Assembly: GCA_025356095.1 (NCBI GenBank)
Contig: JANXUR010000048.1
Coordinates: 1 to 64,000 of the forward strand
Direction: 5' to 3'
Length of the DNA: 64,000 nucleotides
From: Acidobacteriaceae bacterium
Lineage (GTDB): Bacteria > Acidobacteriota > Terriglobia > Terriglobales > Acidobacteriaceae
The translations under genes and the position numbers were made by a program. This document shows positions 18,311 through 51,596 of this stretch, in pieces (the first letter of the stretch is position 1; every line of letters begins with the position of its first letter). The notes beneath the pieces were generated by a model, which saw only the letters and a list, made by a program, of their open reading frames with translations, had not been told where the DNA came from and searched no databases.

Positions 18311-19883
18311 CAATCCCAAATTCCTTCCACCGCTGCGTCACTCTTTTTCGCGTCGCTTCATCCATCGTAATCTCATCCGGCCACGGACGCACGAATCCTT
18401 CCGCCGCCCACTTGCGCGTTGCATCAATTCCCATCTTCGACCCGTAGTTCGGCAGCCGCGATGCGTGGTCCAGCGAATCAATCGGCCCCATCGTAAATTG
18501 AATGTCCCGCTCCGGGTCTATATTGTTGAATACCTTCAGTGTAACTTCTGCAACGTTCTGCACATCCACATCTTCATCCACCACCACCACTACCTTGGTA
18601 AACATCGCCTGTCCCAGTGACCAGATTGCGTTCATCACCTTGCGCGCCTGCCCCGGATACGACTTGCGAATACTCACCAACATCAAGTTGTGAAACACGC
18701 CTTCCACCGGCAGATTCACATCCACAATCTCCGGAATCGTCATCCGCATCATGGGCAGGAAGATGCGCTCCACCGCCTTCCCCATGTAGGCATCTTCCAT
18801 CGGAGGCTTGCCCACAATCGTCGTCGCATACACCGGGTCTTTGCGATGCGTGATGCAGGTAACATGCAGCACCGGATACTCGTCTTCCAGCGAATAAAAG
18901 CCGGTGTGGTCGCCAAACGGCCCTTCCGTGCGCAGTTCGTCGAGATTCACATACCCCTCAATCACGATCTCCGCATTCGCCGGAACTTCCAAATCCACCG
19001 TCTCGCACTTCACCAGTTCGACGGGCTTCTGCCGCAAAAATCCCGCCACAATATACTCTTCTACCTCCGGCGGCGCAGGCACAATCGCTGAAAAAGTCAA
19101 CGCCGGATCTGTCCCAATCACCACCGCCACTTCCATCCGTCCCGTAGGACGTTCGCCCTCCGCCAGCCTCGCCCCGCCGCTGGCTCGAGCCATAATATCC
19201 ACCGCTGCCGATTTGCCGAGCGAGTCGCCACCCGTTGTGGCCATCCGCATCCGCTCGCGCATATGCTCCGCCGCCACCTTTTGCCGCTGCCAGTGCACAC
19301 CCGCCGTGGTCGCGTCATACACCTGCATCCGGTACATCCCCATGTTGCGCTTGCCCGTACGCGGGTCACGAGTAATCACGCACGGCAGGGTAATAAAGCG
19401 GCCCCCATCCTGCGGCCAGCATTGCAGCACCGGAAACTCCAGCAGCGAGAAATTTTCCTTCCGGATTACCTCTTTGCACGGGCCTGTCGCCACTGTTTTC
19501 GGAAAGAACTTACCTGCCTCGGCCAGCATCGGCAGCATTTTCACTTTGTCCAGAAACCCTTGCGGCGACTTCACGTCCATGAATCCGCGAATCCGCTCCG
19601 CGATTTCGTCCAGCGAATCCACTTCCAGCGACATCCTCATCCGCCGCTCGGAGCCAAACTGATTAATCAGCACCCGCTGCCCGGGATGGCCTTTCAAATT
19701 TTCAAATAGCAGCGCTTTGCCACCAACCGCACCCGCTTTGTCGCGCGATTTCGACACTCGGTCAGCGATCTCCGCCAACTCCAATATCGGATCCACCTCT
19801 GCCTTGATGCGCGTGAGTTCCCCGGCGCGGTCCAGGGCCTTGATGAAGTCGCGTAAATCGTCGTATGCCAAGCCCGCCTCCAC
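18306..19883 (-). CDS. UbiD-family (de)carboxylase
   Basis: The 525-residue protein belongs to the UbiD family, which uses prenylated FMN to decarboxylate or carboxylate aromatic or alpha,beta-unsaturated acids. Recognised landmarks are LRDFIKALDRAGEL at the start, the conserved block EGPFGDHTGFYSLEDEYPV near residue 320, and GKPPMEDAYMGKAVERIFLP. Length is normal for the family. The start is a GTG at 19883. A UbiX partner, which makes the cofactor, is not in the window. It is divergent from the ketosynthase gene and upstream of a methyltransferase. A role in menaquinone or aromatic acid metabolism is possible, but the substrate is not fixed by sequence. Confidence 0.9.
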   Translation of the reverse strand: MEAGLAYDDLRDFIKALDRAGELTRIKAEVDPILELAEIADRVSKSRDKAGAVGGKALLFENLKGHPGQRVLINQFGSERRMRMSLEVDSLDEIAERIRGFMDVKSPQGFLDKVKMLPMLAEAGKFFPKTVATGPCKEVIRKENFSLLEFPVLQCWPQDGGRFITLPCVITRDPRTGKRNMGMYRMQVYDATTAGVHWQRQKVAAEHMRERMRMATTGGDSLGKSAAVDIMARASGGARLAEGERPTGRMEVAVVIGTDPALTFSAIVPAPPEVEEYIVAGFLRQKPVELVKCETVDLEVPANAEIVIEGYVNLDELRTEGPFGDHTGFYSLEDEYPVLHVTCITHRKDPVYATTIVGKPPMEDAYMGKAVERIFLPMMRMTIPEIVDVNLPVEGVFHNLMLVSIRKSYPGQARKVMNAIWSLGQAMFTKVVVVVDEDVDVQNVAEVTLKVFNNIDPERDIQFTMGPIDSLDHASRLPNYGSKMGIDATRKWAAEGFVRPWPDEITMDEATRKRVTQRWKEFGIE

Positions 19884-36773: not shown

Positions 36774-39617
36774 CTACTCCCCTCCGCCTGCCGCTATCAC
36801 GGTATGCTTTGGCGGCGGCATGGGGGTATTGCCCTTGCGGTCGTGCCACAGGATCGCGTTCAAGGTCTGCGAATCTGCGGCATCGGCGTGGCGGAAGTCC
36901 ATCTTCGACGACTGCTCGGCTCCCTTGTCTCGACGCTTGTTGGTTTCGAAGATCAGCCCATTGTCCCAGTTCCGATGATCCGCCTTGAATGGAGCCTGCT
37001 TGCCGCCGCCCGCAAAAAGCGGCGTCATCACCGGCGCATACGCATCGTTCACATTCATCGGAGGCAGCCCCAACAGCGCCTCCATGGTCCGGATCATGCT
37101 CACCGTGGTGTAAAACCCATGCTCCACCGCAGGATTGGCTGCCGACCCCGGCGCATACTTGCTAATCACCAGCGCCGTCGAACGGTGTGCATCCACATGG
37201 TCAGCCGCATCCTGCGCGTCATCCTCCAAAATCATGATGGCGGTGTCGTCCCAGTACGGGCTGTTAGAAATCGCTTCCACCACGCGCCCCACTGCCAGAT
37301 CGTTGTCGGCGACGGCAGCAGCAGGCGTAGGCGCATTCGGCTTCTTGCCCGAGGTGTGGTCATTCGGAATCCGCAACTGGATAAACTGCGGCATCTCATC
37401 TTTGTTGCCCGCCGCACGCGCTTTCTGCCACGCGGTGAACTCCAGCAGGAACTCATCCACCCGCAACTGGTCGGGGTATTCGGGATTGAAATCCGGAAAA
37501 TGCTCGTCGAAATGGCCCAACAAATCCGCCTTAGTCGCCACATCGCGTTTGATTACCGGAATCGCCCACGGATACGGACTCGCCCCTCCGCCCAACCGCG
37601 CCGGTAGCGGATCACCCTTGCGAATCACTGCCCGCTCACACTCCCCGCCCGTTGGCTCAATCGTCCCTTCGCGTGGCTGGGTCTGGCGTGCCTTCTTCTT
37701 CCTCGGATCCTCGCACCACTCCGTGGCAATAAATTCCCCATAGTGCCGATAGCTCACACCGTGCCGCGCCAGATTGTTCCATAAATATCCCGTACCCGGC
37801 TCATCCACGTCGGAGATATGCCAGTGCAGCGGATACTCGTCCAGCACGGTTCCTTCGTAGTCGTAGCTATGCTCACCCGCGCGATACGCAATTGGCCAGG
37901 TCTTCTCGTTGTAGTCGCTTGTAGTCGCTGCATTCGACCACTCGTGCCCGTCTGCCGACACTTCACCGCTGTCATAAAAATTGTCGAGCACCCCGAACTG
38001 CAACGCCAGTTTGTGCTGATTCGGCGTCACCTCTTCGCCAAACAGTGTCAGCGACGAATCGCCATTGCCCACCCCGAGGTCGCCCAGAATTTGGTCATAC
38101 GTGCGATTCTCTTTGATGATGTAAATCACGTGCTTGATCTTTTTTGCGTTCGCAGGCAACGCCACGGTTGCAGCGTCCAGCAAATTGTCCTGCCGGGCTT
38201 GCGCGGTCAGATCCGCCAGTCTGCTTTCGGTTTGCGACACCGGCAGCCGCGCCAGCGAGCCCTGCAGCAGGGTCGGAATATAGGGCAGCTCCGAGCGCTT
38301 CACCTTACCCGCCGTGATGTCCTTCATATCCTGCACGGGCTTGTTGGGGCCAGTCCCCTGCCCCTTGCCGCTGGCGATGATCAGGTCATTGCCGTGCACC
38401 ACAACTGCCGTCGGATACCAATCGGTCGGGATGAACCCCAGCGCAGCCTTCGCCTTTCCGTCATCGCCCGGTTGCGTGTCCAGTACCGCCACACTATTCG
38501 TTCCCGCGTTTGCGGCAAACAGCCGCTTGCCATCTGTGGAAAGCGCCACGCTCAACGGACTCGACCCACCTGCCTCCTGGCCCGCCATCTTGGTGGACCA
38601 CCGCGTCACCACTTCCCCCTTCGCCGTATCCACCGCCACCACGGCATCCGCATTCGCCAGCGCCACATACAACCGTTTGCCATCGCCGCTCAGCGTCATC
38701 GCTGTCGCATGCGGGCTCGACGACGCGCGCTCCGTACCGGGTAGCGCGATCCAGCGCGATACCCTTCCTGCCGCCACATCCAACTCTGCCAGCTTTGCCT
38801 CATTCCACAACGATACCCACGCCCGCCGGCCGTCGCTCGACACCGCCACTCCATAGGGAAAAGTCCCCGGGACCAGTTTGTGCAGGCTCAAGTCAAACCG
38901 CTTCTGTACCGCGCCCGTCGCAGCGTCCAGCATCACCGCATCGTCAGCAAGATTCTCAGCCACCAGCAACTCGTCGCTACTTGCGCCGTGAATCACTGCT
39001 ATCCCCGCTGGATACGGCACAATTTTCCCCGCATCTTCCGGATGCTCATGCAGTCCGCGTGCCCCAAACTTGCCTGCCGCCAACGCCGCTTGCGGCAGCG
39101 GCAAAAACTTTTCCGGTGCCACCACGCCATCCTTAAAGGAATACACCGCAATGCCGTTACCTAAATGGTTCTTCTTCACTCCGCCCACGTCAGTCATCGA
39201 AACCACAGACGCGTACAACCGCGCACCATCCCCGCCAAATGCCAGCCCGACAAAGTACGACTGCGCCGCGCCTTCCTTAAACCGTTCATCAGGAAAGTCT
39301 TGATACTTGCCAGTAGTCAAATCGAACACGCCAATGGACTGCCGGCGCCCGGAACTCTCCGCGCCGTAGCCAGCAAACAGGGCTGCCACATAACGCCCAT
39401 CCGGACTCACCACTACTGTCACCGGCAAACCATTGGTGGCAGTGACAAACCCTTCCCCAGGAGCCTCCACCATTTTGCTGCTCGGCAGCCACACGATCTT
39501 CTTAATCATCCGCGTCGCCGCCAGCGACAGCATCATGCTTGCACACAGCATCCCGACCCATCCCAGAAGCCGCAACCCGCGCCCGTTCCACCACCGACCC
39601 GTCGTCACTGTCCGCAT
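36774..39617 (-). CDS. exported YVTN beta-propeller / phosphoesterase fusion
   Basis: The 947-residue protein fuses a YVTN/YncE-like propeller (about 60-480) to a phosphoesterase-superfamily domain (about 490-930) beginning KHVIYIIKENRTYDQILGDLG. That start resembles acid phosphatase/phospholipase C-like enzymes; LDNFYDSGEVSADGHEWSNAATT and ILEDDAQDAADHVDAHRS add likely metal and substrate residues. A basic, hydrophobic N-terminus suggests export by a signal peptide or anchor. GGGGGAT precedes the ATG. It lies 120 bases after phoU on the same strand, past a terminator. A role in releasing phosphate from organic esters fits the neighbourhood; substrate is inferred. Confidence 0.85.
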   Translation of the reverse strand: MRTVTTGRWWNGRGLRLLGWVGMLCASMMLSLAATRMIKKIVWLPSSKMVEAPGEGFVTATNGLPVTVVVSPDGRYVAALFAGYGAESSGRRQSIGVFDLTTGKYQDFPDERFKEGAAQSYFVGLAFGGDGARLYASVVSMTDVGGVKKNHLGNGIAVYSFKDGVVAPEKFLPLPQAALAAGKFGARGLHEHPEDAGKIVPYPAGIAVIHGASSDELLVAENLADDAVMLDAATGAVQKRFDLSLHKLVPGTFPYGVAVSSDGRRAWVSLWNEAKLAELDVAAGRVSRWIALPGTERASSSPHATAMTLSGDGKRLYVALANADAVVAVDTAKGEVVTRWSTKMAGQEAGGSSPLSVALSTDGKRLFAANAGTNSVAVLDTQPGDDGKAKAALGFIPTDWYPTAVVVHGNDLIIASGKGQGTGPNKPVQDMKDITAGKVKRSELPYIPTLLQGSLARLPVSQTESRLADLTAQARQDNLLDAATVALPANAKKIKHVIYIIKENRTYDQILGDLGVGNGDSSLTLFGEEVTPNQHKLALQFGVLDNFYDSGEVSADGHEWSNAATTSDYNEKTWPIAYRAGEHSYDYEGTVLDEYPLHWHISDVDEPGTGYLWNNLARHGVSYRHYGEFIATEWCEDPRKKKARQTQPREGTIEPTGGECERAVIRKGDPLPARLGGGASPYPWAIPVIKRDVATKADLLGHFDEHFPDFNPEYPDQLRVDEFLLEFTAWQKARAAGNKDEMPQFIQLRIPNDHTSGKKPNAPTPAAAVADNDLAVGRVVEAISNSPYWDDTAIMILEDDAQDAADHVDAHRSTALVISKYAPGSAANPAVEHGFYTTVSMIRTMEALLGLPPMNVNDAYAPVMTPLFAGGGKQAPFKADHRNWDNGLIFETNKRRDKGAEQSSKMDFRHADAADSQTLNAILWHDRKGNTPMPPPKHTVIAAGGGE

Positions 39618-39737: not shown

Positions 39738-40424
39738 CTAAGTCTGCGTCTCCGCGTCGGTCGAGGGATCCCCCACATTGTGCCGCACATCTGCGCCCTT
39801 CACCCAGAAGATCACGTCTTCTGCAATGTTGGTGGCGTGGTCGGCCACGCGTTCCAAATTCCGCGCGATCAGCAGCGCATCCAGCGCCTGCTGCGTCACA
39901 CTTGGCGTTTCGTTCATCTTCCGCACCAAATTGATGAACGCTTCGTCACGCATGCGGTCTACTACGTTATCCATCTCCAGCACGGCCTGTGCCAGCTCCG
40001 CCTTGCCTTCAATAAACGATTCCAGCGCTCGCCGCACCATGGCTGAGGTTGCCGATGCCATCCGCGGAATATCCACCGGAAGATCCACGAACGGCAGGTC
40101 AATCATGTCCATCACGCGTTCCACGATGTTGACCGACTGATCCCCGACTCGCTCCAAGTCAGAATTGATTTTGACCACGGCCAGAATAAAGCGCAAGTCA
40201 ACGGCGGTGGGCTGCTGCATGGCAATCAAGTCGAAGGCAGCCTCGTCAATGCCGCGCTCCAACTCATTAATCTTGCTCTCGCCTTCCAGCACCGAGTGGC
40301 ACTTGGCCAGATCTCGGTCGCGATACGCTTCGAACGCGCGATCCACTGCCTGCTCCGCCAGCCCGCCCATACGCAACAGCCGGTCGCGCAGGTCTTCCAG
40401 TCCCTGATGAAATTTCGTCCGCAT
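39738..40424 (-). CDS. phoU: phosphate signalling protein PhoU
   Basis: A 228-residue all-helical cytoplasmic protein with the two-fold PhoU repeat. Each half has an acidic metal-binding stretch (LERGIDEAAFDLIAMQQP; DNVVDRMRDEAFINLV), and ERVADHATNIAEDVIFW is the standard C-terminal motif. PhoU links the Pst transporter to the PhoR-PhoB system and limits phosphate uptake. The start codon overlaps the pstB stop as TAATG, so translation is coupled. No phoR or phoB is in the window. Confidence 0.95.
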   Translation of the reverse strand: MRTKFHQGLEDLRDRLLRMGGLAEQAVDRAFEAYRDRDLAKCHSVLEGESKINELERGIDEAAFDLIAMQQPTAVDLRFILAVVKINSDLERVGDQSVNIVERVMDMIDLPFVDLPVDIPRMASATSAMVRRALESFIEGKAELAQAVLEMDNVVDRMRDEAFINLVRKMNETPSVTQQALDALLIARNLERVADHATNIAEDVIFWVKGADVRHNVGDPSTDAETQT

Positions 40425-41185
40425 TATCCAAACCTGCCCGTGATGTAGTCTTCCGTGCGCTTGTCCGAGGGTTTTGTAAAGACCTTCTCGGTCCGGTCAA
40501 ACTCGATCAGCCGCCCCATCAAGAAGAAGCCCGTAAACTCTGCGACCCGGGCCGCTTGCTGCATGTTGTGCGTCACAATGACAATCGTAAACTTCTCTTT
40601 CAACTGAAAGATTAGCTCTTCGATTTTACCTGTAGAGATGGGATCGAGCGCCGAGCAAGGTTCATCCATCAACACCACTTCGGGTTCTACCGCCATCGTT
40701 CGCGCAATGCACAGCCGCTGCTGTTGACCGCCTGAAAGACTGGCTCCCGACTTCTTCTTCATCGTGTCTTTTACTTCGTCCCACAACGCGGCCCCGCGCA
40801 GCGCGCGTTCCACCAATTCTTCCAACTCTTTTTTCCCCGGAGCAATGCCGTTCAGCTTCAGCCCCGCCGCCACGTTGTCAAACACGGTCATCGAAGGAAA
40901 CGGATTAGGCCGCTGAAACACCATGCCCACCCGGCGGCGCACCTGAACTGCAGAAGTACCATTGTAAATATCCACTTCGCCCACGCGTACACTTCCGGTG
41001 GCGCGAGCTTCCGGAATCACCTCATGCATGCGGTTTAGGCAACGAATGAACGTGGATTTGCCGCAACCCGAAGGGCCGATAATCGCCGTACACTTATTTG
41101 CGTCCGCAATCATGCTCACATCATGCAGCGCATGATGTTTGCCGAACCACGCATTTAGATTCTCCACTGTAATGCCTACGCCCAT
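40424..41185 (-). CDS. pstB: phosphate ABC transporter ATP-binding protein
   Basis: A 253-residue ABC ATPase that powers phosphate import. Walker [11 protein letters not shown], signature [13 protein letters not shown], Walker [14 protein letters not shown] and switch VTHNMQQA are intact, and [16 protein letters not shown] is typical of PstB. I chose the ATG at 41185 ([10 protein letters not shown]), with AGGAG nine bases upstream, over an earlier start inside pstA. The gap to pstA is 28 bases and the stop overlaps phoU. Confidence 0.95.
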
Positions 41186-41213
41186 GCCAAAGCTCCTAAC
41201 TGCGATGATGCAG

Positions 41214-42092
41214 CTACTGGACTGAACCAAGTGTGCCGCGGCTTACGGCGATCCGCACTGCCGCCACCGAGAACACAATGAGGATAATGAGAATTAACGC
41301 CCCAGCCCATGCCTGACGATGCCAGTCGTCATAGGGAGAGATCGCGTAACTAAAGATTTGCAGGGGCAGAGCCGCCGTCGGCTGATCCAGGTTCCAGTTC
41401 CAATAAGTGTTGCCAAACACCGTAAACAGCAGCGGTGCCGTCTCGCCCGCAATGCGCGCAAATGCCAACATGCAGCCCGTGATGACTCCCGAAGTCGCCG
41501 TTCGCAGCGTCACACTCACCGTGGTACGCCACTTGGAAACGCCTAATCCGTACGCTGCCTCCCGCAAACTATGCGGCACCAGCAGCAGCATCTCTTCCGT
41601 CGTGCGCGTGATCGTGGGGATCATCATGATGCCCAGAGCTACGCCGCCCGCCAGCGCTGAAAAATGCCCCCGCGTCAGTACCACGAGCGCATAGGCCGTA
41701 ATGCCGATGATGATGGAAGGCACCCCGTTCAGCACATCCGAAGTGAAACGAATCAGGTTGCCAAATCGGCTGCCCCGACCATACTCTGAAAGATAGATCC
41801 CCGAGCCGATCCCAACGGGCACCCCAATCGCGCTTGCCAAGCCCAGAATCAGCACAGAACCCGCAATGGCATTCGCCATGCCGCCACCAATTTCGCCCGG
41901 AGGCGCAGGCGTCTTGGTTAGAAAATCAAAATTCAGCGCCCCAAAGCCCTTGTACAGCAGGTAGCCAAAAATCGCCAACAGCGGTGCCAATACCAGCACC
42001 ACGCAGCTTGCCGCAATGAATGTCGCAGCCCAGTCGGAAAGCTTGCGTCCGAACGGCAACGGCGCCACTTGCTGATTCAATGCTCTAGCCAT
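41214..42092 (-). CDS. pstA: phosphate ABC transporter permease PstA
   Basis: A 292-residue inner-membrane permease with about six spans, carrying the ABC-permease loop [19 protein letters not shown] (EAA motif). With PstC it forms the phosphate channel. Its ATG lies eight bases inside the end of pstC, preceded by GAGGGGAA, so the two are translationally coupled. Confidence 0.95.
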
Positions 42093-43119
42093 TTCCCCTC
42101 GCAGGCATGCCCCGGGTGACGCTCCAAACCAGCAACTGGGCCAGAATATTTACAATCACTGTCACCACAAACAGCGCCAGTCCCACTTCGATCAGCGCGC
42201 TCAAATACAAATCCCCGGTGGCTTCGCTAAACTCATTCGCAATCACACTCGCCATTGTGTGCGCTGGTGCGAACAATGCCTCGGTCAGCTTAGAAATTTC
42301 TGGCCGGTTGCCGATGACCATTGTGACCGCCATCGTCTCACCCAGTGCACGCCCCAATCCCAGAATCACTCCGCCGACAATCCCGGCGCGCGCGTTCCGC
42401 AACACGCCCATGCGAATCATTTCCCAGCGCGTTGCACCCAGCGCGTACACCGCTTCCCGCTGCGCAGACGGCACCGCCGTCATCACTTCCCGCGCCATCG
42501 AAGAGATGATCGGTACCACCATAATCGCCAGAATAATGCCCGCCGCCAGCATACCGATGCCGAATGGCTGCCCGGCAAACAGACCAGTCCAGCCCAGCGT
42601 TTTGATCAAAAAAGGCTCTACGTTTTCGCGGAGCAGCGGCACCAGCACAAAAATCGCCCACAACCCATAAATCACCGAAGGGATCGCCGCCAGCAGCTCC
42701 GTCATGAACGATAGAAACGTCTTCAACCGGCGCGGACACATTTCTGTAATGAAGATGGCCACGCCCATGGACACCGGAACTGCAAGTAACAGTGCCAGCA
42801 GCGATGACACCACCGTGCCGTAAACAAACGGCAGCGCCCCGTAATGGTCGTTGACCGGATCCCAATCTTGCCCAACAAAAAACTTGAAGCCAAACGCCTT
42901 CCAGGCCAAATCCGAACGGCTGATCAGCTCATACAAGATCAAGCCCACAATGACCAATACTGAGGTGCCACAGGCGACGACAATCGCATAAAACGACTTG
43001 TCGCCGAACCACGCGCGGGAAATATCCGTTTTTTTGGGGATGGCCGGGGCCACTTCGAGAGCCTTTCCGGGTTCGTCGGCTCCGCTCGGGAGCGGAGCGC
43101 CTAGGGCTGCGTTACTCAT
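42085..43119 (-). CDS. pstC: phosphate ABC transporter permease PstC
   Basis: A 344-residue permease with an extended cytoplasmic N-terminus (about 50 residues), then six spans. GQDWDPVNDHYGALPFVYGTVVSS and AQREAVYALGATRWEMIRM (EAA loop) identify PstC. I chose the ATG at 43119; a GTG four codons earlier is possible, and neither has a clear Shine-Dalgarno. It is the first gene of the pstC-pstA-pstB-phoU operon and is divergent from ppx. Its binding protein, pstS, lies 7 kb upstream with other phosphate genes between. Confidence 0.94.
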   Translation of the reverse strand: MSNAALGAPLPSGADEPGKALEVAPAIPKKTDISRAWFGDKSFYAIVVACGTSVLVIVGLILYELISRSDLAWKAFGFKFFVGQDWDPVNDHYGALPFVYGTVVSSLLALLLAVPVSMGVAIFITEMCPRRLKTFLSFMTELLAAIPSVIYGLWAIFVLVPLLRENVEPFLIKTLGWTGLFAGQPFGIGMLAAGIILAIMVVPIISSMAREVMTAVPSAQREAVYALGATRWEMIRMGVLRNARAGIVGGVILGLGRALGETMAVTMVIGNRPEISKLTEALFAPAHTMASVIANEFSEATGDLYLSALIEVGLALFVVTVIVNILAQLLVWSVTRGMPARGNG

Positions 43120-43145
43120 GACTGAACACAAAGTACCAGATATTT

Positions 43146-43163
43146 GTTACATGAGGATTAAAA
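43146..43163 (-). promoter_or_regulatory. weak candidate Pho box before pstC
   Basis: On the minus strand the direct repeat reads TTTTAAT-CCTC-ATGTAAC, with the 11-base spacing of PhoB boxes. The second half resembles CTGTAAC of the pstS site; the first half is poor. It lies 27 bases before the chosen ATG, very close, so a short or absent leader would be required. Confidence 0.3.
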
Positions 43164-45819: not shown

Positions 45820-48024
45820 TTAGGCCTTGGTGGTGGTGCCAGCTCGCCGCGAGCGCGGCTTGGCCACTACTTCTGGTTTCGGTGCCCCTTCTTCCACCGA
45901 CTCTGCCCCCGGAATATCCTGCAACTTGGCTTTGCCTTCGACCAGCGCGATCAGGAAGTCTTGCGCGCTAAAGGGCTTGTCTCCATTCGCACGCTCCGCC
46001 CGAAGATAGACCCCGGCCTCGGTCAGCACCCGCGCCTTTTTGGTGTCGGCCAGATAAGCGGCTAGAATTTCTTCTCGCAGACGCTTGCGCAGCTTCGCTT
46101 CTCTTACCGGGAACAGTACTTCTACCCGCTCATACAGATTACGGTGCATCCAGTCCGCGCTGCCTGCGTAAATCTGCTCATTTCCGCCATTGGCAAACAG
46201 ATAAATGCGGCTATGCTCCAGAAAGCGGCCCACAATGCTCCGCACCCGAATCCGCTCACTCACACCCGGAATCCCCGGCCGCAACGCACAGATGCCGCGG
46301 ATAATCAGGTCAATCTCCACCCCCGCCTGCGACGCCCGGTAGAGCGCGTGAATCGTATTCTTATCCAGCAGCGAATTCATCTTCGCAATGATTCGCGCCG
46401 GTCGCCCTGCCCGTGCGTGTTCCGCCTCGCGCTCAATCATCTCGAGGCAGCGCATCGAAAGCGTGAGCGGCGACACCAGCAACGGCTCATAGCTGGCATG
46501 CTCGGAATACGCCGTCAAGTATGCGAATACATCGCTGACCGCGTTGGTAATCTGCGGATCGGCCGTCATCAGGCTCAAGTCTGTGTAGAAACGCGCCGTC
46601 ACCGAGTTGTAGTTGCCCGTACCCAAATGCGCATAGCGTCGCGTGGTGCCATCCGGATCACGCCGCACCAGCAGCGCTAGCTTGCAATGCGTCTTTAGCC
46701 CCACCACACCGTGGAAGACCTGCACGCCCGCATCTTCCAGTTCACGCGCCCAGCGGATGTTCGAGGCTTCGTCAAAGCGCGCCCGTAGCTCCACCACCGC
46801 CGTGACTTCTTTGTGCGTCGCAGCTTCAATCAGCGCTGGTACCACTCGCGAGTTCTCCCCCGTACGATAGAGCGTCTGCTTAATCGAGAGAACTCGCGCA
46901 TCTTCCGCAGCCGATTCAATCAGTGCCACCACTGGCTCATAGGAGTCATACGGATGATGCAGCAGAATGTCGTTCCGCCGGATCTCCTCAAACAAATCTT
47001 CCGTCTTCGGCGACAGCCGCAACTCTCGCGGCGCAAACGGACGAAATTTTAAATCCGGCCGGTTCGTCTGCTCGCAGATATTCATCAGACGGCTCAAATT
47101 CACCGGCCCATCCGTGCGAAATACCTGCCAATCTTCCAGATCGAAGTTCACCTGCAAACGATCCGTAATCTCCGGGCTGGCACCCGCTTCAATCTCCAGC
47201 CGCACCACGTCGCCCTTGCGCCGGTTGTGTAGCTCACTCCGCACCAGCTCCAGCAGCGACCGCGACTCTTCTTCTTGCACATACAAGTTACTGTTGCGCG
47301 TAGCTCGAAACGCCGCCGACGCCAAAATCTCGTACCCCTTGTACATCTCCTTCGCATGATGCGCCACCAAATCCGCCAGGAAGATATAGTCCGTGGTCTG
47401 TTTGGAGGGCAGCCGCACCAGCCGGGGCAAAGCTCGGGGCACCGTCACCACCCCGGTATAGATCACCGCCGAGCGATTTCTTTTCAGCAGAAACGCCAGA
47501 CACAGAGCCTTGTTAATCACCCGCGGAAACGGATGCGACGGGTCTATCGTCACCGGTGTGAGCAACGGGTCCAGTTCGCGGTCGCAGTAGTCATCCACAA
47601 AGGCCCGTTCATTTGCATCCAGTTGGTCAATCTCCAGCACCCGAATACCCTCGGCTGCCAGCGCCGGATGCAGCAAATCATTCCAGCAGCGATACTGCGC
47701 CGCCAAAAAGTCGTGCGTCTCTTTCGCCACCATGTCCCGCTGCTGTAACAGCGTGATGCCATCGGGCAACGTCAGCACATGGCCATCTTCAATCTGCTGC
47801 ACCAGGCCGGCCAACCGCACTTCAAAAAATTCATCCAGATTGCTGGCCGTAATGGAAAGAAACTTAATCCGCTCCAGCAAAGGATTGGATTCGTCTTCCG
47901 CCTCCTCCAGCACGCGCCGGTTAAAGGCCAACCAAGACATTTCACGGTTCAGCAGAAAAGCGGGATTCTCCACGGGCAGGTTCGTCATCGTCACTCGCGT
48001 CGCATCCGGTGCGGTCTCAATCAT
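45820..48024 (-). CDS. ppk1: polyphosphate kinase 1
   Basis: A 734-residue enzyme that polymerises the terminal phosphate of ATP into polyphosphate at the inner membrane. [18 protein letters not shown] opens the N-terminal domain. The autophosphorylated histidine is in [10 protein letters not shown] near 468, and the second catalytic region carries [18 protein letters not shown] near 585. Length is normal, with an alanine/lysine-rich tail ending RRAGTTTKA. An ATG 12 codons later is an alternative start. It lies 14 bases after a small exported protein gene and probably shares its transcript. It ends at a strong terminator. Confidence 0.96.
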
Positions 48025-48564: not shown

Positions 48565-50235
48565 CTAGAAGGTATAGACCAAGTCAAACTGCAAGCGCTT
48601 CAAGTAAGGGTCGCTGCTGCCCGGCTTCACGCCCGTCGCCAGTTTGGCGTTCAGCAGCGTTGAATCCAGCGTGTGTCCATACCAGTACGTGAAGTTGGCC
48701 GAGGTGTTAGCACCCACCTTCCACAACCCGAAGAAACGATGCTGTTCGATGTTCGTTGGCGCACGCTGATCCGATTCCGTAAACGCTGCAATCGCCGAAT
48801 CCTGCTCCTGATGATTGAACGCGTACCCGAACTGGATGTCGCCCTTGTTGCGGTTTTGTCCAACGCTGGCTTCAAAGTAGTAAGCCACACCTTGGCTGCC
48901 CTTGGTCACCGTCGTCACCTTGCCGGTCGAATCAACCGTCGGCACCGTGCTCGCGGCGCGTAAGTTGTCCAAATATTCTGCCGTAAAGTTCAACGGCAGT
49001 CTGGTGGACCACTTGCCCGTTCCTGTCTTCACTTGGCCGCCAACAATCAAATCGGAATACAAGAAGCCCGAGAGGAAGTGTTGGACACCCTTCGAATCTA
49101 CAAATGTCGCGTTGGTGATGCCGTTCGCACCAAACGCGCAACTCGGAGTCTTGTTCGGCAAACCGTTGCCGCTGGCGCAACCTGCTCCCGGCCCTGGAAC
49201 CGGCAAGCCGCCTGTCGTGGTCGTTGCACCCACCTGATAGGCTGATGCGTTCAGAATCGCATCTGCATTCTTCCAGTTCAGCACCGTGTACGAGGGGTTC
49301 AACGTCAAACGCCCTAACACGATTCGCGAGTTGATTGAGCCGCCCGCCGCGAACGAATCCGCACCGCCGCCCACTTCCGCGTATAGCATCTGGATACCCT
49401 GAACCGTCACGTTCTTTACATACTTCTGCCGCGCCAAGTCAAACGAGAACTTTTCGTTGAAGCCTTCTGGATTGATATCCGGATCGAACGTGTCCGAAGT
49501 CCGGGTCCAACTGTAGGCAAACTTACCGCCCGTCACCGACAGCCACTTGTGCGCCCGCGGATTGTACGTGATATACCCACGGTCAATGCCGATCGTCTTC
49601 TTCTGGAAGAAGTCCGTCAAGCTGCTGTTGGTCGAAGTCGAATCTGGCAGAACACCCGACGCCAGCGCTACACCCGCCAGAAAGTCGTCGTTCAACTTGC
49701 CTTCAAATCCGAAACGTACCCGGATGCGTGCCCGGTTACGATCCGCTACGCCCGGCTGAAAGAAGCTTTCACCCCGGACCCGCATATCGCCTGTCCAGCG
49801 AAAACGGCCCAGCGTGGATTCCAGCGTACTCACCCGCTTCTGCTCATCCTGCGTCGTGACCGCGCTGTTGGCCAGCGTCGTCTTCACATCGGTCAGGTCG
49901 CTGTTCAGCTTGTCGAAGGAATCCTTCTGGACGGAAGAGTTCTCCACCGCCATTGCCTTTTCATTCGCTGAAGCCGCCGAAGCCTTGGCATCCACCAGCT
50001 GCTGCTGCGTTTGCTGCCACACTGCATCCCGCGCTGCCATCTGCTGCTTCAGCGCTTCAATCTGCGCCGACTGCGCCGCCAGCGCATCCCGCAACCCCTT
50101 CACATCATCCGCCGTCACGGCCGGTACCACCGGAACGTCCGGCTTCTTCGCCGCCTTCTTGGTGGCAGCACTGGCGCTCGCCAACAGGGACGCCGCCGTC
50201 AGTACCACCGCTCCCAACTTGATTGCGTACTTCAT
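48565..50235 (-). CDS. outer-membrane porin with N-terminal coiled coil
   Basis: A 556-residue outer-membrane protein. After a signal peptide (AVVLTAASLLASASA), residues about 40-135 are Ala/Gln/Lys-rich and strongly coiled-coil-like (ALAAQSAQIEALKQQMAARD). From about 150 a beta-barrel begins (RFRWTGDMRVRGESFF, RNRARIRVRFGFEG), typical of putative porin families, and the protein ends with a phenylalanine (FDLVYTF), the barrel assembly signal. I chose the ATG at 50235 because AAGGAGAT precedes it. It lies 133 bases downstream of pstS, which suggests a phosphate or anion channel; selectivity is not shown by sequence. Confidence 0.88.
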   Translation of the reverse strand: MKYAIKLGAVVLTAASLLASASAATKKAAKKPDVPVVPAVTADDVKGLRDALAAQSAQIEALKQQMAARDAVWQQTQQQLVDAKASAASANEKAMAVENSSVQKDSFDKLNSDLTDVKTTLANSAVTTQDEQKRVSTLESTLGRFRWTGDMRVRGESFFQPGVADRNRARIRVRFGFEGKLNDDFLAGVALASGVLPDSTSTNSSLTDFFQKKTIGIDRGYITYNPRAHKWLSVTGGKFAYSWTRTSDTFDPDINPEGFNEKFSFDLARQKYVKNVTVQGIQMLYAEVGGGADSFAAGGSINSRIVLGRLTLNPSYTVLNWKNADAILNASAYQVGATTTTGGLPVPGPGAGCASGNGLPNKTPSCAFGANGITNATFVDSKGVQHFLSGFLYSDLIVGGQVKTGTGKWSTRLPLNFTAEYLDNLRAASTVPTVDSTGKVTTVTKGSQGVAYYFEASVGQNRNKGDIQFGYAFNHQEQDSAIAAFTESDQRAPTNIEQHRFFGLWKVGANTSANFTYWYGHTLDSTLLNAKLATGVKPGSSDPYLKRLQFDLVYTF

Positions 50236-50368: not shown

Positions 50369-51376
50369 CTAGCGGACGTTCTTGATCGCGACCTTAACCT
50401 TCTCCGTTACCGAAGCTGGCAGCGGCGCGTACGTCAATGCACCCGTCATGCTCTGCCCGTCCGTTACCATCCAGCTCAAAAATCCGGCGATCAGCTTGCC
50501 CTTCGCCGCGTCCTTCGACTTCTCCGGAATCAGCAACCAAGTGAAGCTCGAAATCGGATAAGAATCCTTGCCCGGTGCATTCGTGATTGAAACCCGGAAG
50601 TCCGCCGGCATCGTCTTCACCGAAGCCGCCGCCGCTGTTACGCTCTCCAGCGAAGCCTTCACAAAGTTGCCCGAAGCATTGCGCACCACGCCATACGGAA
50701 TCTTGTTCTGCACCGCGTAGATCAATTCGATGTAGCCAATCGAACCCGGCAGCGTCCGAATCTGTCCCGCGACGCCCTCATTGCCCTTGCCGCCCAATCC
50801 GCTCGGCCATTTCACCGAAGTGCCCTTGCCTGCGCTGTCCTTCCACTCATTGCTCACCTTGGAAAGATAGTCAGTAAAGATGTACGTCGTGCCGCTGCCA
50901 TCCGAGCGATGCAACGTCACAATCGTTTGGTTCGGAAACGTGACCCCGGGGTTAATCTTCGCCAGGCGCGCATCGTTCCAGTTGTTGATCTTGCCCAGAA
51001 AAATGTCTGCCAGCACGTCTGGCGTGAACTTCACTTCGCCCGCAACACCCGGAACGTTGTACGCCGGAACCACTGCGCCCATCACCGTGGGAATGTGCAA
51101 CAACTTGCCGTTGTATTGCGAAAGCTGGTCATCTGTCATCGGACCATCGCTCGCACCAAAATCTACCGTGCCTGCCAAAACCTGACGAATTCCTCCGCCC
51201 GATCCGATGGATTGGTAGTTGAACTGCACATCCGAATGCAGCTTGCGGTACTCGCTAAACCATTTGGAATACATGGGATACGGGAATGTGGCACCCGCTC
51301 CATTAATAGTCGTTTGGCCCCAAGCCGAAACGACAAAAACTGCCAAACACAACACTAGACCAAAACGGCGACTCAC
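50369..51376 (-). CDS. pstS: phosphate-binding periplasmic protein
   Basis: A 335-residue exported protein that binds phosphate and delivers it to PstCA. After a signal peptide (VLCLAVFVVSAWG) it shows NGAGATFPYPMYSKW, SIGSGGGIRQV, FGASDGPMTDDQ and LHRSDGSGTTYIFTDYL, the ligand loops of PstS. The start is GTG at 51376 with AGGAGG upstream. It is separated from the pstCAB-phoU operon by the porin, ppk1, sixA and ppx genes. A Pho-box-like repeat lies 54 bases upstream. Confidence 0.95.
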   Translation of the reverse strand: MSRRFGLVLCLAVFVVSAWGQTTINGAGATFPYPMYSKWFSEYRKLHSDVQFNYQSIGSGGGIRQVLAGTVDFGASDGPMTDDQLSQYNGKLLHIPTVMGAVVPAYNVPGVAGEVKFTPDVLADIFLGKINNWNDARLAKINPGVTFPNQTIVTLHRSDGSGTTYIFTDYLSKVSNEWKDSAGKGTSVKWPSGLGGKGNEGVAGQIRTLPGSIGYIELIYAVQNKIPYGVVRNASGNFVKASLESVTAAAASVKTMPADFRVSITNAPGKDSYPISSFTWLLIPEKSKDAAKGKLIAGFLSWMVTDGQSMTGALTYAPLPASVTEKVKVAIKNVR

Positions 51377-51429
51377 TATATGTTTCCTCCTGAGAGTGAC
51401 GGGCTACCTTATGGTTCTAGTGGCGGCTT

Positions 51430-51447
51430 GTTACAAACTCGTTACAG
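51430..51447 (-). promoter_or_regulatory. PhoB-box-like direct repeat upstream of pstS
   Basis: The minus strand reads CTGTAAC-GAGT-TTGTAAC: two 7-base half-sites with 11-base periodicity, as in the E. coli Pho box (CTGTCAT-N4-CTGTCAT). A TAGAAC that could serve as a -10 element follows about ten bases later. Position and spacing fit activation of pstS under phosphate starvation. Confidence 0.65.
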
Positions 51448-51569
51448 ATTGGTGAATATCTATTGAAACGCCCCGCCAGCCCGCAAGAGTCGAGGCAAAA
51501 ATGGGCTCAACTGCCTGCCATTCCCCAAGCTCCAAGACCACCATACTAACAGAATCCATAATATTTATT

Positions 51570-51596
51570 AGTATAGTAGGGATTCAAAAATGTCAA
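51570..51596 (-). promoter_or_regulatory. candidate sigma70-type promoter upstream of pstS
   Basis: The minus strand has TTGACA at 51591-51596 and TATACT at 51570-51575, with a 15-base spacer, in AT-rich sequence. It lies nearly 200 bases before the pstS start, upstream of the Pho-box-like repeat, and may give a basal, longer transcript. The short spacer is a weakness. Confidence 0.4.

Follow-up and report, generated by a model that had tools for sequence, protein, structure and literature searches.

A predicted four-site PhoB-type operator upstream of pstS in an Acidobacteriaceae bacterium and its relatives

The window, by which we mean the whole 64,000-nucleotide stretch of Acidobacteriaceae DNA analysed here, carries the genes of a Pst phosphate transporter in two groups on the minus strand. 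The gene for the phosphate-binding protein, pstS, occupies positions 50369-51376 (TIGR00975, 393.5 bits against a cut-off of 205), begins with a GTG codon and is preceded by a Shine-Dalgarno sequence, AGGAGG, at 51386-51391. A putative porin gene (48565-50235, minus strand; PF16930 Porin_5, 73.5 bits, without a match in NCBIfam) follows directly and probably belongs to the pstS operon. The second group consists of pstC, pstA (41214-42092; TIGR00974, 284.6 bits), pstB (40424-41230; TIGR00972, 366.7 bits) and phoU (39738-40424; TIGR02135, 193.3 bits). The match of pstC to TIGR02138 (310.5 bits) covers 42085-43131; we place its start at the ATG at 43119, giving a gene at 42085-43119. The distance from pstS to pstC is about 7-8 kb in this genome, and in many relatives pstC lies close behind pstS. 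Between pstC and the porin gene lie an open reading frame that looks SixA-like by eye, one of AraC type (PF12833) and the polyphosphate kinase gene ppk (45820-48024, minus strand; TIGR03705, 901.5 bits). The opposite strand carries a long open reading frame at 42998 which, by eye, looks like a Ppx/GppA phosphatase; because it runs over the beginning of pstC, its true start is probably later. Downstream of phoU, positions 36774-39617 (minus strand) encode a large protein with weak matches to PF04185 phosphoesterase and to beta-propellers, possibly a phosphatase of the phoU operon.

A reading made from the sequence only had pointed to CTGTAAC-GAGT-TTGTAAC at 51430-51447 as a 7+4+7 direct repeat of Pho-box type, correctly oriented before a phosphate gene. 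The observation was confirmed: CTGTAACGAGTTTGTAAC is present there on the minus strand without mismatch, as the sole match in the window at up to two mismatches, and the start codon of pstS lies 53 nt downstream. Matches at up to two mismatches also appeared in 10 of 100 dinucleotide shuffles of the window. What had been taken for the whole element is the inner pair of a longer array, GTTTCAA-TAGA-TATTCAC-CAAT-CTGTAAC-GAGT-TTGTAAC-N10-TAGAAC, in which four half-sites follow each other in 11-bp phase, the outer pair of the form TTCAY and the inner pair of the form TGTAAY (YTGTAAY). Alignment of relatives and a matrix derived from them place half-site 1 at 51463-51469 (GTTTCAA; family form TTCAY, from which the TTCAA of this copy differs by one mismatch) and half-site 2 at 51452-51458 (TATTCAC; family form AATTCAC). 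Half-sites 3 and 4, at 51430-51447, are kept in relatives. A predicted -10 element, TAGAAC, begins 10 nt past half-site 4, at 51414-51419, as judged from a profile of 79 upstream sequences and the matrix. Scored with a matrix built without its own copy, the array reached 56.3, and the runner-up in the window, on either strand, -3.7. A consensus scan called neither a promoter nor a terminator at the array, its one promoter match being at 51558-51587.

Conservation was assessed on PstS loci. Of 150 genomes of the host order, 144 had PstS at E <= 1e-40, and 80 PstS loci were kept from a wider contig set. From 110 loci with a PstS match we obtained 103 distinct upstream sequences, and 130 nt of each were scanned. 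YTGTAAC-N4-YTGTAAC was found within two mismatches in 76 of these 103 sequences, a count over related loci that ignores kinship. The best match had 0, 1, 2, 3, 4 or at least 6 mismatches in 31, 23, 22, 8, 11 and 8 sequences respectively. The reverse complement of the pattern was found in six of the 103 at two mismatches and never at fewer, and first-order Markov shuffles (n=2060) gave a rounded 0.0% at two mismatches. Seventy-nine aligned upstreams, picked by having at most two mismatches to YTGTAAY-N4-YTGTAAY, yielded a profile with all four half-sites (outer TTCAY and AATTCAC) and a -10 element of the form TANAA, 10 nt past the last half-site, with T28, A29, A31 and A32 conserved around an unspecified position. 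In 96% of them an A directly follows the last half-site on its 3′ side. At position 5 of the half-sites, 97% and 99% of the 79 copies have A; these copies were themselves picked for likeness to TGTAAY. The flanks of the leader are little conserved, in contrast to the half-sites and the -10 element.

The array was also sought in upstream sequences beyond the profile. In a chosen sample of further pstS upstreams from the order, scored with the pstS matrix, 29 of 40 lay above the 99th percentile of shuffles and 11 failed; as one locus, L315, shares its contig with L109, which was used for training, the truly held-out figure is 28 of 39. The box drifts at genus level among these upstreams, for example to ATGTAAC-N4-CCGTAAC. 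From other classes of the phylum we scored 37 pstS upstreams, 20 from one set and 17 of the 20 in a second, and just five of them beat the highest shuffle; three loci of the host's own family in the second set scored 22.8, -28.8 and -40.7. A TGTAAC form common to the phylum was rejected on the result for the other classes. The sequence-only reading had proposed TGTAAC as the acidobacterial form of the box; judged from these upstreams, it is a form of the host order and some neighbours, not of the whole phylum. A TGTGAC form, TTGTGAC-GAGA-TTGTGAC-N10-TACACT, stands before pstS in one genome of another class (G231, locus L268). On a contig labelled Elusimicrobia (L118), and possibly mis-binned, a pstS 64% identical to that of the window has a near-classical TTGTCAC-N4-CTGTCAC box 83 nt before its estimated start.

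The matrix also detected a weaker second box in the window, TTTTAAT-CCTC-ATGTAAC at 43146-43163 (minus strand), before pstC. This is the second-best place in the window with the full matrix (-3.7), and it is followed after N10 by a predicted -10 element, TACTTT, at 43130-43135. With a sub-matrix of the inner pair and the -10 element, trained on pstS upstreams only and without the window's own copy, the box scored 14.2, a value reached in none of 100 shuffles (99th percentile 0.16). Between the end of this -10 element and the ATG at 43119 there are 10 nt, and the transcript may therefore be nearly leaderless. When the sub-matrix was applied to 30 pstC upstreams, 15 scored above the 99th percentile of shuffles and 15 below, nine exceeding the highest reverse-complement score (4.0). 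Scores between 9.4 and 25.9 were obtained at L388, L389, L392, L403, L407 and L409.

A genome-wide search for the motif, as the sequence-only reading had advised, gave different answers for the 18-mer and for the four-site pattern. CTGTAAC-N4-YTGTAAC at up to two mismatches had 14 matches in the 3.53-Mb genome against 20 for the reversed pattern, and its exact copy in the genome is that at 51430-51447 alone. The inner 18-mer is thus uninformative without position and conservation, and the case rests on its position and on the relatives. Across the 150 order genomes, the exact two-site pattern had 40 matches against 13 reversed, and the four-site pattern, with up to three mismatches and a last half-site TKTAAY, had 93 matches in 48 genomes against 5 reversed. 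In the genome studied here, the four-site pattern at up to three mismatches has two matches and no reversed match. pstS follows 33 of the 90 classified matches (57 pstS places were typed). For the other 57 matches, 56 were retrieved and their downstream reading frames sorted, one at a contig end being left out. Twenty-seven of the 57 precede reading frames judged phosphate-related, a label given after the gene had been seen, with the five reversed matches un-annotated as background and kinship ignored in the counts. Five of the 57 precede a candidate RNA gene, and 25, including the one that was not retrieved, lie before unrelated or unclear sequence; 19 of these 25 carry three mismatches. The sequence-only reading had named a lack of enrichment before phosphate genes in related genomes as refuting its claim; the pstS and pstC upstreams and the matches of the four-site pattern do not refute it.

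The 27 phosphate-related targets comprise PhoU (four), PF04185 phosphoesterases (three, one by clustering), MGDG-synthase-like glycosyltransferases (two, one by clustering), SixA-like proteins (two, one by clustering), two weak PstS-like proteins (L242, below the Pfam cut-off, and L247, by clustering only), and one each of PhoX, a PHO4 transporter, a type I phosphodiesterase and PstC (L226; a permease by Pfam and PstC by a separate search). The largest class, with ten members, is a cluster of outer-membrane-protein-like sequences with signal peptides and coiled-coil-like character, whose tie to phosphate is weak. Six of the ten are similar to the N-terminal part of the window porin (26-35% identity over 136-169 residues), and no Pfam porin domain was found in the six members scanned. 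The second four-site match of the genome studied here lies 23 nt before a reading frame (L165:1562-3037, on G000:C54) that unites PlsC-type and OlsB-type acyltransferase domains in one protein (PF19576 and PF13444), a layout that we take to be that of the ornithine-lipid synthase OlsF. At E <= 1e-60 this OlsF-like gene was found in its own genome alone among 60 genomes of the order, and it was perhaps acquired and wired into the Pho regulon. An olsF gene of Vibrio cholerae is reported to be controlled by PhoB (PMC12186959, in excerpt).

Five of the array matches shared an unexpected downstream sequence, a candidate intergenic RNA with an invariant CCCUUCUAACCGGGAGGG hairpin. At up to two mismatches, CCCTTCTAACCGGGAGGGT occurs once each in 15 of the 150 genomes, 12 times exactly and three times with one mismatch; the reversed pattern had 11 matches, counted without a breakdown by mismatch number. 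The array precedes the RNA at all 15 loci, where it is the top-ranked place on both strands of about 3 kb, ends 12-15 nt before the hairpin and scores from 0.2 (L419) to 33.7. Ten of the 15 loci were found independently of the array, and all ten are preceded by it. The half-sites of these promoters are mostly TGCAAY or TGAAAC, not TGTAAC, and may be weaker PhoB sites or sites of another regulator. As the core hairpin is invariant at 18 of 18 positions, it says nothing about pairing. A second, terminator-like stem has seven pairs in which both partners vary, a number attained in none of 500 shuffles, and in most loci a G+C-rich hairpin and a T-run stand behind the core. No reading frame is common to the loci, and single loci have frames open across the RNA. 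By sequence, then, the family has a predicted promoter, a conserved structured core, a predicted terminator and no shared frame, as a small RNA should.

The copy in the genome studied here lies outside the window (L422:1433-1563, on G000:C85, with a CCCTTCTAACCGGGAGGG hairpin; hairpin at G000:C85:19809-19827), between a small reading frame without a Pfam match and a gene for an OprB-like porin. Its T-run is weak, its fold is ordinary relative to shuffles (z -1.5), and the consensus scan called neither a promoter nor a terminator there. Rfam 15 returned nothing at E <= 1 for five of the RNA loci and, for eight more at E <= 5, two weak matches only, both under the gathering scores: snoZ188 in L424 (E 0.25), which covers the promoter stretch on the opposite strand, and RT-15 in L421 (E 0.71), away from the RNA. 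No convincing match was thus found in the 13 loci searched of the 15. A model of the RNA run against 399 genomes of the class found the family in 12, all in the host family; weak extra matches in G079 and G405 lacked the hairpin and were dropped as spurious.

The RNA could act in cis as the leader of an OprB-like porin gene and not be a free small RNA, and such a gene does lie downstream on the same strand within 1.5 kb at five of the 15 loci (L422-L425 and L427). At L246 and, by reading frame, at L212, however, the RNA is followed by a gene for a DtxR-type repressor, and in most loci the G+C-rich hairpin and T-run stand behind the core; a leader seems rather unlikely. We consider the chances evenly balanced that transcription from the array yields small RNAs of an undescribed family, with a single copy per genome and made under phosphate starvation, whose CCUUCU strand lowers the translation of phosphate-costly mRNAs. 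By hand pairing, this strand, which two U-G pairs close only loosely within the hairpin, fits AGGAGG ribosome-binding sites. If the proposal is true, the RNA would be the repressing arm of this Pho regulon.

The best PhoB match in the genome (G000:C116:31204-31884) scored 249.6 bits, below the TIGR02154 cut-off of 296.2, and is followed by a phoR-like kinase gene with HisKA and HATPase domains (L015 2190-3524). We call this regulator PhoB-like because of its rank, its phoR-like neighbour and the synteny in relatives. In two of these (G010 and G020) phoB and pstS point away from each other on either side of the array; in G010, pstS lies at 18769-19746 on the minus strand, the array at 19814-19851 and phoB from 20156 on the plus strand. 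Upstream of phoB in the genome studied here no array was found, the best plus-strand matrix score in the locus being -15.1. Base contacts of E. coli PhoB are made by T194, V197, R201 and R219 (PMC3264566, in excerpt). V197, R201 and R219 are kept in the order, with T194 replaced by S and H198 by Y in 13 of 13 sequences (best match per genome); regulators of other classes, for some of which PhoB identity is unproven, have T194 in 23 of 25 and H198 in 24 of 25. S194 and Y198 appear to accompany the shift from TGTCA to TGTAA, but shared descent confounds this correlation and one family (f20) runs counter to it. A residue code in which H198 reads TGTCA, Y198 TGTAA and C198 TGTGA was suggested by G231, which has a C198 regulator (L354) and the TTGTGAC-N4-TTGTGAC box before pstS. 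The code was rejected as unproven: regulators on the pstS contigs of family f20 keep H198 with ATGTAAC boxes, the Y198 group is a single clade, and in G231 the C198 regulator lies off the pstS contig, which carries another regulator (L378).

These observations bear on what the array is. A chance match of the inner repeat, its conservation reflecting mere common descent of the pstS leader, would fit the finding that the 18-mer is no commoner than its reversed form. It is barely credible beside the contrast between conserved half-sites and drifting flanks, the recurrence of the array before unrelated genes and, in part of the loci, before pstC, and its presence before all ten RNA loci found without it. 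The array might instead be the operator of a different OmpR-family response regulator that controls the phosphate genes. Members of this family recognize direct repeats, in several cases laid out alike (PMC4832192, in excerpt), the genome encodes two or more full-length regulators of this type besides the best PhoB match (163.1 and 161.4 bits), and the RNA promoters favour TGCAAY or TGAAAC over TGTAAC. Half-sites of the form TGCAAT or TGAAAC are, however, also carried by a PhoX and a PhoU gene (L217 and L236), the phoR-like kinase follows the best PhoB match, and it is the PhoB counterpart that sits across the array from pstS in G010 and G020; we therefore regard control by another regulator as highly unlikely.

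The sequence evidence comprises the array and its conservation, a -10 element at constant distance, repeated occurrence ahead of phosphate genes, a regulator paired with a kinase, and the synteny in two relatives. All of this is best explained if the repeat is part of a PhoB-type operator of a phosphate-starvation promoter, to which we assign a probability of about 0.9; the array would then be a lineage-specific four-site Pho box. We infer the following course of binding, phosphorylation and regulation. When phosphate is scarce, the PhoR-like kinase would phosphorylate the PhoB-like regulator, which would bind head-to-tail in 11-bp phase on TTCAA, TTCAC, TGTAAC and TGTAAC. With the innermost half-site near the -35 region, RNA polymerase would be recruited to the -10 element TAGAAC, and pstS, probably with the porin gene behind it, would be switched on. 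The weaker two-site copy would act likewise on pstC.

Acidobacteria are abundant in phosphate-poor soils, and a usable operator matrix would make the Pho regulon readable from the genomes of the order. Here the operator points to genes for Pst, PhoU, phosphatase-type and lipid-remodelling proteins and to an RNA without a convincing Rfam match at the 13 loci searched, for which the array provides a first functional lead. The coincidence of S194/Y198 with the change from TGTCA to TGTAA poses a testable question, namely how a regulator family changes its target. In the open-licence PMC literature, to which our search was confined, no paper joining Acidobacteria, PhoB and the Pho box was found, TGTAAC together with a Pho box was found for E. 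coli only, and among the matches listed for phosphate starvation or the Pho regulon in Acidobacteria none was an operator study by its title.

Several known systems resemble the array in part. The Bacillus subtilis PhoP box, bound by a Gram-positive regulator, is made of TTAACA-type repeats, and the drifted acidobacterial copies CTTTAACA and TGTTAACA contain TTAACA. In Sinorhizobium meliloti, some small RNA candidates have predicted PhoB sites and others are raised on phosphate starvation (PMC2573895, in excerpt); these too are small intergenic RNA genes, a likeness of description. The Streptomyces coelicolor PhoP box, GTTCACC-N4-GTTCACC, has the same phase and is like the outer TTCAC of the array (PMC4832192 and PMC4415409, in excerpt), but it belongs to another phylum and another regulator, and the inner pair here is TGTAAC. 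A Pho box is defined as two 7-nt direct repeats with 4 nt between them, with a species-dependent consensus (PMC4415409, in excerpt), which in E. coli is CTGTCAT-N4-CTGTCAT (PMC4832192, in excerpt). Like the array, the E. coli box consists of 7+4+7 direct repeats before pst genes and near the -35 region; it differs in having TGTCAT, whereas here the inner pair is TGTAAC and a four-site array with an unlike TTCAY outer pair is usual before pstS. The sequence-only reading had set TGTAAC against TGTCAT, but TGTAAY lies within the range of known PhoB sites: those identified in E. coli by ChIP-seq, including the sites of phoE (TGTAATAAAAGCGTAAAC) and mglB (TGTAACCCGTATGTAACA), contain TGTAAY, and TTCAY half-sites occur among them as well (PMC10294691, in excerpt). 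The same source describes strict spacing of the Pho box to core promoter elements, and in the 79 upstreams the array likewise stands at a fixed 10 nt from the -10 element.
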